Assembly (NCBI GenBank): GCA_023667315.1
Contig: JAMPAI010000017.1
Span: 1 to 37,988, forward strand
Origin: Ruminococcus flavefaciens
GTDB taxonomy: Bacteria; Bacteroidota; Bacteroidia; Bacteroidales; P3
Reading direction: 5' to 3'
DNA: 37,988 nucleotides
A program made the translations under genes and the position numbers. The notes under the pieces were generated by a model that saw nothing but the letters and a program-made list of their open reading frames with translations, made no database searches and had not been told where the DNA came from. Shown one piece after another: positions 312 to 36,627 of this stretch (position 1 is its first letter; the number at the start of each line of letters is the position of its first letter).

Positions 312-426
312 AAAATTTATATTATTATAACCGCCGCCCGCAACAATCCACGCAGCCTACGCAAGACACCCCGCCTTACCCATAACCCACTGGCCGACAC
401 TCAACAATTATAATAATATAAATTTT
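312..426. repeat. Inverted repeat upstream of the first LRR surface-protein gene (copy 1)
   Basis: The arm at 312-330 is the exact reverse complement of 408-426 (19 bp, AT-only), separated by a GC-rich 77-bp spacer. Each arm contains a smaller palindrome of the form TTATA-N4-TATAA (317-330 and 408-421, centres 91 bp apart), which looks like a dimer-binding operator half. The right arm ends about 50 bp upstream of the TATATTTG box at 475. The same arrangement occurs at 36460-36571 before the second LRR gene, and both spacers contain CGCAAGACAC (360-369 here). There is no TAnnTTTG box in the spacer on either strand, so a simple invertible promoter is not supported. Confidence 0.85.
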
Positions 427-474
427 ATCTTTTTCCAAGAAAGTAAAAATATATCGATAAAATTTAAATTACAC

Positions 475-482
475 TATATTTG
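475..482 (+). promoter_or_regulatory. Bacteroides-type -7 box (TATATTTG) of the first LRR gene
   Basis: A perfect match to TAnnTTTG lies 48 nt before the ATG at 531. No TTTG is present about 20 bp upstream, so the -33 element is missing or degenerate, as also at the paralogous promoter 36620-36627. This hints at activator dependence, perhaps through the inverted repeat just upstream. Confidence 0.65.
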
Positions 483-530: not shown

Positions 531-2369
531 ATGAAAAACAATAAGATAATGAAAAAACTATGGATTGGCCTAACGGCCATCTCCCTGAGCCTATGCTCGC
601 TGCAAGCCCAGGAAACCACCGCCCCCCGGATTTTGGGGTTTAGTTGCGGGTCGTCGTCTGTAACGAGTCTGGACGTGAGCGGCTGCACCGCCTTGACAAG
701 CCTGTCTTGCAGCAGCAACCAATTGACGGAATTGGACGTGAGCAAAAACACCGCCTTGACTTCCTTGGATTGCGAACGTAACAAATTGACCAGCCTGAAC
801 GTAAGCGGATGCTCCGCCTTATCTTCCTTGAATTGCTACTCCAACGACTTGACCAGTCTGGACGTAAGCGGCTGCATCGCCTTGAAAACATTGGCTGGCT
901 ATTGGACTTCTGGTTCTTCTGATCATTATTATTTAACGGTTGACACTTTGAAAATACATGGAGTGTCGATGGAGACGCTGAGTATAGGAGCGTATTCCAC
1001 CATAGGACTTCTAGATGCCCAAGGATGTACCTCTTTGCGCAGTATTTCAGGGCACAGATATAGTGAGAGCCCCAAAAGCATAGGGAGAATAAATCTCCAT
1101 GATTGTTCTAATTTGGAAAGTTTGGATTGCGCTGGAAGCTCTGGGTCTAAAGGTTCGTTAAAAGCATTGGATATACGTGGCTGTACAGCCTTGACTGAAT
1201 TGAATTGCCAATACAACGAACTTGATAGCCTAAATGTAAGCGACTGTGCGGCCTTGACGGAACTGAACTGTGCATATAACAACCTGACATATTTACACTT
1301 AAGCAAACACACCGCCTTGACTTCCTTCGATTGCCACTCTAATAGCTTGACAAATCTGGATGTAAGCAACTGCTCCGCCTTGACTTCCTTAGATTGCTCC
1401 TCCAACAACTTGCCCAATCTGGATGTAAGCAACTGCTCCGCCTTGACTTCCTTGTCTTGCTCCTCCAACAACTTGCCCAATCTGGATGTAAGCAACTGCT
1501 CCGCCTTGACTTCCTTGTCTTGCTACTCCAACAACTTGACCAATCTGGATGTAAGCAACTGCTCCGCCTTGACTTCCTTGAACTGCAGATACAACCGGAT
1601 ACCATTGTCTTCCTTGTATGAAACACTCACCCAAGTTCCTCAATTGAGTTCTTTTGTCGCTTTTGGCCAATCGGATTCCATCGTCATTCTCATCGACCAA
1701 GACTTCGATTTGTCTTCGGAACGCATCATCGGCCAAATCCTCACCTCTTTCGAGTTGACGGATGCCTACAACAAGGAAGTATCCGAGGATTTCTGGACGG
1801 AAAACCGCTTCGTGTTTCAATTCCACGAACCCCTTAAATACAAGCTGGTGCTGCGAAACGACAACATCTCAACCAACTATCCTGTCTTTACCTGGCATAT
1901 CTCGGTGGTGGAGGAAATGCCGTCTTGTACGGTGAAGGTGTCGGCCAATAATACGGAATGGGGCACGGCCAACATTACCGGCAACGGAATCTATGGATAC
2001 GGCTCGGAAGCGACCGTTACGGCCACCCCGAAGGAGGGCTACCGCTTCGTGAACTGGACGAAGAAGAACGGCACGGTGTTCAGCACCGAGGCGGTTCACA
2101 CCTTCGCGGTAACAGCAGATATGGAACTGACGGCCAATTTCGAGGAAGACCCGAACCCTGTGGGCAACGAGACCTATGTAGCGAACAACTTCCGCGTATG
2201 GGCACAGGACTGCGTCATCTATCTGTCCGCCTACAAAGGCGATGTGCAGGTCTATAACACGGTGGGGCAATGCCTCTATAACGGTCGCGCCACGGCCATC
2301 CCGGTGCGGAACAGCGGCCTGTATATCGTAAAGGCGGGTCGGATGACATCTAAAGTGATTGTAAGATAA
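531..2369 (+). CDS. Secreted Cys/Leu-rich-repeat surface protein with T9SS sorting tail
   Basis: The protein has 612 aa. An Sec signal peptide is visible at the N-terminus (LWIGLTAISLSLCSLQAQ). About residues 38-360 are 21-residue leucine-rich repeats of the form LTSLDVSxCxALTSLxCxxN, each with regular cysteines. About residues 464-539 resemble a divergent InlB B-repeat (GYRFVNWTKKNG, then LTANFE). The last ~65 residues look like a Por-type (T9SS type A) sorting tail, with VYNTVGQCLYNG and GLYIVKAG. The inferred role is a surface-exposed or secreted binding protein; the ligand is unknown. ATG 531 is chosen because an in-frame TTG at 480 lies inside the promoter box; ATG 549 is an alternative. 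The central part (about 890-1300) is more AT-rich than the flanks, suggesting mosaic origin. A paralogue starts at 36679. Confidence 0.85.
   Translation: MKNNKIMKKLWIGLTAISLSLCSLQAQETTAPRILGFSCGSSSVTSLDVSGCTALTSLSCSSNQLTELDVSKNTALTSLDCERNKLTSLNVSGCSALSSLNCYSNDLTSLDVSGCIALKTLAGYWTSGSSDHYYLTVDTLKIHGVSMETLSIGAYSTIGLLDAQGCTSLRSISGHRYSESPKSIGRINLHDCSNLESLDCAGSSGSKGSLKALDIRGCTALTELNCQYNELDSLNVSDCAALTELNCAYNNLTYLHLSKHTALTSFDCHSNSLTNLDVSNCSALTSLDCSSNNLPNLDVSNCSALTSLSCSSNNLPNLDVSNCSALTSLSCYSNNLTNLDVSNCSALTSLNCRYNRIPLSSLYETLTQVPQLSSFVAFGQSDSIVILIDQDFDLSSERIIGQILTSFELTDAYNKEVSEDFWTENRFVFQFHEPLKYKLVLRNDNISTNYPVFTWHISVVEEMPSCTVKVSANNTEWGTANITGNGIYGYGSEATVTATPKEGYRFVNWTKKNGTVFSTEAVHTFAVTADMELTANFEEDPNPVGNETYVANNFRVWAQDCVIYLSAYKGDVQVYNTVGQCLYNGRATAIPVRNSGLYIVKAGRMTSKVIVR
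1356..1580 (+). repeat. 63-bp tandem repeats inside the LRR gene
   Basis: Units begin at 1356, 1419, 1482 and 1545, an exact 63-bp period encoding one 21-residue LRR each. The first three differ from the middle unit at only 2-3 of 63 positions. The fourth matches for its first ~36 bp and then diverges. Conservation at DNA level, beyond what the protein needs, points to recent duplication and probable copy-number instability. Confidence 0.9.
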
Positions 2370-2782: not shown

Positions 2783-3469
2783 ATGTGTTCAGACAACGAG
2801 AATCATGTTCAATACGATGGGCTCCATTTCCTCAAAAAGGGGAATGGAACGGTTTCTGTCAGCTTGAATAGCCTCTATCCCATCCAACAAAAACGTGAAA
2901 TATTCGCAAACTTAGGAACGGAGGTTACCGTTCCTGAGTATATCCAAGTAATGGAAAAGTACAAAGTAACGGAACTCGGAGATACTTCTTTTGAGTATGC
3001 CGACCAGATGGAGGTGCTGAATCTTCCCTGTAGTATATCTGCGATAAAATGGAGTTTTTGGGACTGCAACAAGTTACGGGAAATTCATGTCGCTCCCCAA
3101 AACGAATCCTTTTGCGATGTTGATGGGGTTGTGTATTCCAAAGACAAGACCAAGATTATAGTCTACCCTCCCGCTTATCCGGAAGAAGAATACCACATAT
3201 TGCCTTCCACGCGCAAAATAGCTGAACTCTGCTTTAAAAATGCCAATAATTTAAAGACGTTGTATATCCCTGAATCAGTCCGGGAAATTGGATCCAACGC
3301 CCTTTACGGCTGCTTTAACTTAGAGCATGTCTATATTGAGGGCGAACTCAAGAGTTTTTTAGGTGTTCCCTCAGACGAATGGTGTCCGAAAAAGACGGTT
3401 GTCCATTACCAAAACAAACAATGGCCAATAAACGAGTTTAGGGAAGCGTTTTCGCAACGCAAGCAGTAG
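2783..3469 (+). CDS. BspA-type (TpLRR, LRR_5) leucine-rich-repeat protein
   Basis: The protein has 228 aa. The first ~60 residues resemble the lead-in of BspA-like proteins (YDGLHFLKKGNGTVSVSL, then EVTVPEYI). LRR_5 repeats follow, of the form VTELGDTSFEYADQMEVLNLP and LKTLYIPESVREIGSNALYG, with a DVDGVVYSKD insert common in this family. No signal peptide or sorting tail is visible, so it may be cytoplasmic or a fragment of a larger surface protein. It starts 36 nt after the head-domain gene and is the last gene before the hairpin at 3491. The LRR class differs from the 21-residue class of the gene at 531. Function is unknown beyond likely protein binding. Confidence 0.7.
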   Translation: MCSDNENHVQYDGLHFLKKGNGTVSVSLNSLYPIQQKREIFANLGTEVTVPEYIQVMEKYKVTELGDTSFEYADQMEVLNLPCSISAIKWSFWDCNKLREIHVAPQNESFCDVDGVVYSKDKTKIIVYPPAYPEEEYHILPSTRKIAELCFKNANNLKTLYIPESVREIGSNALYGCFNLEHVYIEGELKSFLGVPSDEWCPKKTVVHYQNKQWPINEFREAFSQRKQ

Positions 3470-24840: not shown

Positions 24841-24857
24841 TTAGGGGGAGCCTTAAA

Positions 24858-36459: not shown

Positions 36460-36571
36460 TTTATATTATTATAATTTGCCGCAAGACACAACGGGCATTG
36501 CATGAACCAAGGGTTCCAGCCTCCACCCGCAAGCCAGCAAACCTCGCAACAGCAAATTATAATAATATAAA
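36460..36571. repeat. Inverted repeat upstream of the second LRR surface-protein gene (copy 2)
   Basis: The arm at 36460-36479 is the exact reverse complement of 36552-36571 (20 bp), with a 72-bp spacer. The core TTTATATTATTATAA is identical to that of copy 1 (316-330). TTATA-N4-TATAA palindromes lie at 36461-36474 and 36557-36570, centres 96 bp apart. The spacer differs from copy 1 except for CGCAAGACAC at 36480-36489. The right arm ends 48 bp before the TATATTTG box. Confidence 0.85.
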
Positions 36572-36619: not shown

Positions 36620-36627
36620 TATATTTG
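36620..36627 (+). promoter_or_regulatory. -7 box (TATATTTG) of the second LRR gene
   Basis: Identical in sequence to the box at 475-482, 51 nt before the ATG at 36679 (48 nt for copy 1). As there, no TTTG lies about 20 bp upstream. CAAGA occurs 30-35 bp before both boxes. Confidence 0.65.

Follow-up and report, generated by a model that had tools for sequence, protein, structure and literature searches.

Looping repressors such as LacI, GalR and AraC act on paired operators, and short protein bridges between two DNA sites usually need helical phasing. In invertons, the promoter lies inside the inverted repeats. Helicobacter pylori Fur is reported to have two sites upstream of one promoter at arsR, and bridging of the two has been proposed (PMC5007355). 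Invertons of the Bacteroidales, the order to which our genome also belongs, carry inverted repeats near surface-gene promoters (PMC8748976 and others), and the BrickBuilt MITE of Porphyromonas gingivalis is described as having 23-nt tandem repeats, containing promoters and showing promoter activity (PMC4596501). The element analyzed here resembles LacI, GalR, AraC and H. pylori Fur in placing two upstream sites, defined here by sequence only, on one promoter, with bridging proposed; unlike in those systems, its sites are asymmetric and AT-only, show no phasing, nearly always come as a pair and are common to a putative exported-protein regulon. It also differs from a Fur-regulated operator in that FUR, which we considered as the regulator and set aside, gave no match at E 1e-5 in the element-bearing genomes G002, G009 and G011 (76, 91 and 90% complete, at which its absence is not certain). 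Unlike in invertons, the promoter lies outside the repeats, and orientation is kept in 110 of 112 interior pairs. Compared with BrickBuilt, the element is likewise intergenic, multi-copy and lineage-restricted with small inverted ends, but it has no tandem array and no target duplication, and its promoter is external, at a similar distance each time. We found no description of this layout in the openly accessible literature, where the motif strings turned up only in unrelated papers.

The window is the whole of contig C8 (37,988 nucleotides) of G000, a genome of 2.93 Mb in 88 contigs whose T9SS sorting domains and promoter boxes mark it as a member of the Bacteroidota. The original prediction was that a perfect inverted repeat and a promoter box stand in front of one leucine-rich repeat (LRR) gene and recur, almost in register, in front of a second, and this observation is confirmed (Table 1). 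Copy 1 is present exactly as described; copy 2 has the described layout, with perfect arms slightly longer (20 bp) than had been claimed. The genes behind both copies encode LRR proteins, the right arm lies at the predicted distance of about 50 bp from the box in each, and the two interiors show no significant alignment to each other, in line with the claim that they are unrelated. All four window arms carry the same 15-mer, TTTATATTATTATAA, which at up to 2 mismatches finds 4 sites in the window against 0.05 expected, a number reached in 0 of 100 shuffles. We take the TATATTTG box of copy 1 to be a -7-type box, as known from Bacteroidota, in the promoter of the LRR gene. Copy 1 lacks the inner pairing at +1. 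Separately, an AACATC hexanucleotide tandem repeat of ~10 copies occupies positions 66-126, ~190 bp 5' of copy 1, and is a possible slippage site.

Table 1. Coordinates of the two element copies and their genes in the window.
Feature	Position	Strand	Remarks
Copy 1 left arm, 19 bp perfect	312..330	+	core TTATATTATTATAA at 317-330
Copy 1 interior, 77 bp	331..407		no significant alignment with any other collected interior
Copy 1 right arm, promoter-proximal, 19 bp perfect	408..426	-	
Copy 1 promoter box TATATTTG	475..482	+	53 bp from 14-bp core arm
LRR / InlB B-repeat exported protein gene, behind copy 1	531..2369	+	
Copy 2 left arm, 20 bp perfect	36460..36479	+	
Copy 2 interior, 72 bp	36480..36551		homologous, in the same orientation, to interiors at G000:C35:4539, G004:C19:89635 and G004:C20:102936
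Copy 2 right arm, 20 bp perfect	36552..36571	-	
Copy 2 promoter box TATATTTG	36620..36627	+	49 bp from core arm
Second LRR gene, behind copy 2, truncated by contig end	36679..37988	+	

Searching the genome and its relatives for arm pairs returned many more copies, well beyond two. The element consists of two AT-rich inverted arms of ~21 bp each; G000 holds at least 14, and 13 of the 14 have a TAnnTTTG box 45-55 bp from one arm. The exact 15-mer arm occurs 19 times in the whole of G000 (reversed control, 0), making up nine exact pairs and one pair with 1 mismatch in the right arm, and a second arm variant, TTTTATTATTATAA, provides four more pairs; in three of them the interior is longer, and one of those three has a diverged arm. 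Two main arm variants, class 1 and class 2, recur across the family. Using a covariance model built on 50 elements, we collected at least 63 elements in 8 of the 13 genomes of the genus (G000, 14; G002, 14; G003, 12; G004, 13; G008, 1; G009, 1; G010, 5; G011, 3); these counts are lower bounds, the model having scored 150 first-look candidates in 12 of the 13 genomes and 145 of 145 in G010, and the copies are not independent, as gene duplication carries element and gene together. The model found no element in G001, G005, G006, G007 or G012, each of which had 186-289 first-look candidates, 150 of them scored. The exact pair pattern matched in 7 of the 13 genomes, with 0 control matches. One of the 13 in G004, at G004:C1:48709, is a weak model match (E 0.011, one strand); its 20-bp inverted repeat is perfect and keeps the layout, but the letters differ somewhat.

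Matches beyond the genus looked like background. A looser pattern run over 190 genomes of the family matched in 7 more genomes outside the genus, once each, and its reversed control matched in 12. A scan of genome contigs at large returned 55 stretches, 37 of them matching on both strands and 18 on one. Thirty-six of the former come from six MAGs of the genus (JAAVBQ, JAFLTI, JAMPIH, CAMWVZ, CAMWTX and CAMWQD) and one from the symbiont Stammera; the latter comprise a diverged element in JAAVBQ and 17 stretches in other organisms, two of which are Bacteroidota (L138 and L172). These 17 and the Stammera stretch are taken as chance in AT-rich DNA. Carriage by viruses looks unlikely, the two viral contigs matching on one strand only, in AT-rich DNA. 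The covariance model gave E values of 0.001 and 0.78 for the viral contigs L284 and L285 in a 44-kb search and of 0.0012 for L172, a one-strand match in Crocinitomicaceae; because all three had been preselected by the arm pattern, they are provisionally treated as background.

A survey of 1.24 Mb of G000 yielded 23 long-spaced inverted repeats past threshold, 12 of which are this element, eight of those lying in stretches taken because they bear it. Eight of the other 11 are 126-130 bp long, and the four that were read belong to a different, GC-richer family. This second dispersed family of ~127 bp (G000:C33:27873-27999, C33:331108-331237, C22:124921-125047, C22:127526-127652 and probably others) has A-run and T-run ends, arms that vary yet stay complementary and, further in, a palindrome centred around GTAC; it looks terminator- or REP-type. 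Two further loci that resemble each other, G000:C22:260305-260409 and C22:310733-310836, each carry two near-identical 28-bp palindromes ~49 bp apart, with a TATCTTTG box between and after the palindromes.

Arms of the element mostly come in pairs. Among 122 exact arms in the genus (the reversed control gave 1 match in the 13 genomes), 109 lie in pairs of ~100 bp and 2 in a 282-bp pair, the partner being counted whether exact or diverged. The remaining 11 have no known partner, and 9 of them lie beyond known elements (4 in G009, 4 in G011 and 1 in G001). G000, G002, G003, G004, G008 and G010 together hold 105 exact arms, made up of 101 in ~100-bp pairs, 2 in the 282-bp pair and 2 unpaired; in G009 and G011, eight exact arms are paired. 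In the 282-bp case (G003:C36:185-480), two exact arms face each other in inverted order at an unusually long spacing. Individually, the arms are poor palindromes, and the sites are asymmetric.

Complementarity of the two arms reaches past the core. With the contig-edge element L025 excluded, the fraction of elements paired at positions -3 to -1 and +1 to +3 beyond the core is 0.64-1.00, compared with 0.36-0.56 after shuffling between elements. Changes on both sides occupy 134 cells of the alignment, against 53.5 when shuffled and 6-30 with the partner column slid, counts that are inflated by related sequences; pairs with any both-side change number 8 against 7.9 shuffled, which is no excess. 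L104 has a mismatch at a position where its orthologue L119 pairs. Between the classes, both arms change together.

The element is tied to a promoter on one side. In 46 of 63 elements that side has a TAnnTTTG box at 35-62 bp from the arm, compared with 105 of 12000 random positions, which is an unbiased comparison, and with 2 of 61 opposite flanks, which is a biased one since element orientation was set largely by the box; where there was no box, orientation was taken from gene direction or flank homology. Several elements without the exact box carry a near box such as TACTTTCG. By local alignment the 63 right flanks fall into 20 unrelated groups, and a box is found in at least one member of 17. 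The predicted absence of a -33 TTTG from both promoters does not carry over as a general rule, since 11 of 12 class 2 representatives keep T at positions -23/-22 relative to the box. In class 1 (16 representatives), the right arm has an extra conserved TTTTAnnTTT towards the promoter, and the left arm lacks it; a bare hairpin would not need such an extension. Arm profiles were made from 16 and 15 hand-picked representatives and box profiles from 16 and 12.

Of the 63 elements, 57 have arm centres 81-96 bp apart, and in the other 6 the distance is 115-119 bp. We detected no helical periodicity in this spacing at periods of 10, 10.5 and 11 bp, either among the 63 elements (Rayleigh p 0.26-0.54) or in a 51-element set (p 0.249-0.735). 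In that set, the 40 elements with a TAnnTTT[GC] box have arm-box distances of 38-59 bp, and their periodicity was not significant either (p 0.096-0.51). The proposal of paired operators or DNA looping stands as far as paired sites on one promoter are concerned, and the absence of helical phasing speaks against a simple short rigid loop.

An additional box, GTTGATAACTTTTTT (up to 2 mismatches allowed), accompanies 20 of 63 elements on the outer side of the left arm, from which it is 26-28 bp away in 19 of them and 17 bp away in the remaining one; the elements that bear it are all class 2 except L105 (class 1) and L209 (unclassified). Of its 19 copies in the genus, 14 are at elements; at the other five, two of them near contig ends, no element was found. 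Ten of the 11 exact copies in G002 occupy that position outside the left arm, and G000 has 0 exact copies. GTTGATAACTTTTTT may resemble DnaA boxes.

The genes downstream are predominantly predicted to encode exported proteins. By a home-made hydropathy rule, 53 of 61 downstream frames are signal-peptide-like, against 178 of 521 background ORFs; the 61 comprise 44 hand-picked proteins (41 positive) and 17 frames (12 positive) from the other 19 elements, two of which have no frame. L107 and L213 have no obvious signal peptide, nor is the rule satisfied by the frames chosen at L103, L204 and L206. Domains among the 44 proteins, which include that of L118, an element probably oriented wrongly, are LRR_4 (18), FGE-sulfatase (10) and CarboxypepD_reg (7). 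Of the 44, 2 have a T9SS sorting tail that passes the Pfam threshold applied, and of 10 proteins compared with NCBIfam, 2 exceed its cut-off for such tails. The predicted link to a surface-protein family and its promoter is borne out, but its restriction to LRR genes is not, as genes for FGE-sulfatase-fold and CarboxypepD_reg lipoproteins also have the element. Seven class 2 elements (L083, L086, L092, L102, L116, L208 and L214) have in common a MKKLLYVLTGLCLLAG-like leader peptide and promoter module, although the mature proteins that follow differ, some being FGE-type and others CarboxypepD_reg lipoproteins; this looks like reuse of a 5' cassette. At L107 (G004:C20:102936), element and promoter are near-identical to those of the LRR paralogue group, and the gene is non-LRR. 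Elsewhere, the minus strand of L023 carries a TPP riboswitch at 1703-1810 (59.5 bits, above the gathering score).

In G000, 51 LRR matches (to the window's 223-aa query at E 1e-5) correspond to 10 genes, and an element lies directly before all 10; nine of these elements are class 1 and one, at C3:24556-24665 with a gene start at 24850, is class 2. The LRR_5 gene at 2783-3469 of the window represents another LRR type and has no element in front. The link between LRR genes and the element is weaker in the relatives. The prediction had named absence of the repeat before LRR genes of relatives as evidence against it, and this is in part what we see: G001, G005-G007 and G012 have LRR genes, and no element was detected in them. 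The model, with filters off, had no match in the stretches fetched at the LRR loci G003:C20, C56 and C21:18.3 kb, G004:C20:85.8 kb and G002:C53. Thirteen LRR loci were fetched from sister genomes, 9 of them with a readable frame, and upstream inverted repeats there reach at most 11 bp.

Conservation was clearest in L105 (G004) and L114 (G010), syntenic orthologues with the same divergent neighbour gene and 81% identical coding DNA. Their core arms are identical at 28 of 28 positions (39 of 42 with the edges), whereas identity is 52% in the interior, 54% in the right flank and 45% in the left flank, all at the shuffled level. As the arms are kept while their surroundings are saturated, the element is selected in place rather than being a scattered mobile repeat, and the predicted stronger selection on arms than on spacer is supported. 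Ten other compared pairs are less extreme; L119 and L104 have interiors 96% identical, and L020 and L109 interiors 89% identical against 56% for coding DNA. Core arms agree at 27 or 28 of 28 positions in all eleven pairs, most elements having been found by the exact core; in alignment A1 (without L025), whose members were chosen by near-exact core arms, core invariance is largely by construction. Reading an empty site through orthologues failed, as the best G000 match of the L105 gene is 41%, with no close orthologue and no readable empty site.

The explanation that we favor, and to which we would give about an even chance, is a clade-specific cis-regulatory module for an exported and surface-protein regulon, in which a candidate DNA-binding protein most likely occupies and bridges both sites. 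The module would consist of two asymmetric AT-only sites of ~21 bp, face to face and just 5' of an ordinary TAnnTTTG promoter. One candidate protein would sit on both at once, with its main contact on the right arm and the promoter-side extension, and the bridged complex would turn the adjacent promoter on or off. Pairing, position, gene class, arm constraint against a drifting interior and conserved orientation come directly from the computation; that a protein bridges the arms and thereby controls transcription is what we infer. We favor a bridging protein because the core letters and the extension are conserved, elements occur between divergent genes, and no clear structure is seen in the interior. 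Simple looping, however, is seriously hampered by the unphased spacing, and, unlike with ordinary operators, single-site promoters do not stand out. Further points against this reading are that the arms are poor palindromes, that LRR genes without an element occur in G003, G004 and the sister genomes, and that the copies are not independent.

Alternatively, the arms could pair with each other as a nucleic-acid hairpin in single-stranded DNA or in read-through RNA, with the stem being recognised or blocking transcription, which we consider rather unlikely. Such a stem would account for arms that are inverted and complementary, with pairing that runs 3-4 bp past the core in changing letters, for a loop length without phasing, and for the layout kept at G004:C1:48709 by a perfect repeat of somewhat different letters. 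However, the promoter lies downstream of the element, so a transcript from that promoter lacks the stem, and several elements have divergent genes on either side. No clear structure emerges in the interiors (mean RNA z -0.59; 8 of 51 below -2; no shared fold seen), and no Rfam family matched at the element in the 10 loci scanned. Core letters change little where a pure stem would allow change, albeit in a set found mostly by the exact core, and covariation between the two arm classes would also follow if each class had its own protein that recognises both arms.

That a site-specific recombinase acts on the arms, with an interior that can be inverted as a switch or once could, seems distinctly improbable, although inverted repeats near surface-gene promoters are what Bacteroidales invertons would lead one to expect. 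The promoter box common to the elements lies outside the arms, and between unrelated groups the interiors cannot be aligned. Among 1953 interior pairs, 112 align significantly; the forward alignment is the better one in 110 of them and the reverse one in 2, which makes frequent inversion unlikely. One of the two reversals, L111/L118, is explained by a probable misorientation of L118, which lies at a contig edge and has a left flank that corresponds, by eye, to the right flank of L111. The candidate that is left involves L102 (G004:C2:60166) and L214 (G010:C55:6813), which belong to orthologous lipoprotein genes (proteins 63% identical over 410 residues) and whose interiors align in reverse (p 0.0008) and not clearly forward (p 0.063) by global alignment; it may represent one real inversion event.

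A MITE-type mobile element, to our mind quite unlikely, would likewise form a dispersed family of ~100-140 bp with inverted ends, restricted to a clade and with partly homologous interiors (a 15-member group). Yet the random scatter that the original prediction had set against its own reading is not what the genome shows: copies sit at promoters, in the same kind of place rather than in varied contexts, and the syntenic place is kept in L105 and L114 while the surroundings are saturated. Target duplication of 3-9 bp is not clearly above the shuffled expectation in 61 elements, and a 2-bp AT/TA match is part of the inverted repeat itself. No autonomous element was seen in the stretches read, where exact arms occur mostly as short pairs, and an inverted-repeat survey of 1.12 Mb (C33, C22 and C11) returned 4 copies, all already known. 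Least of all do we credit a functionless repeat hitch-hiking with duplicating LRR genes, a highly improbable reading that would suit paralogues sharing element, promoter and gene, and the homology that runs through the promoter into the leader peptide in G002, G010 and G011, but not the 20 unrelated promoter flanks, the several protein families downstream or arms unchanged beside a saturated interior.

Beyond the bridged regulatory module that we favor lies a bolder reading, unlikely in our estimate, in which one structure-and-sequence-coded element, read only with both inverted halves together, would set the expression of much of the clade's exported proteome; the halves would either form a hairpin or be obligately bridged across a loop that is free to vary. 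If true, this class of promoter switch would not have been described before in the literature searched. To our knowledge, the regulation of exported proteins in uncultured Bacteroidales has been little studied, and the elements, 14 each in G000 and G002, would supply a ready-made regulon definition for them. Near-obligate pairing without helical phasing is unusual, and it would offer a clear test of two distant asymmetric sites acting as one.
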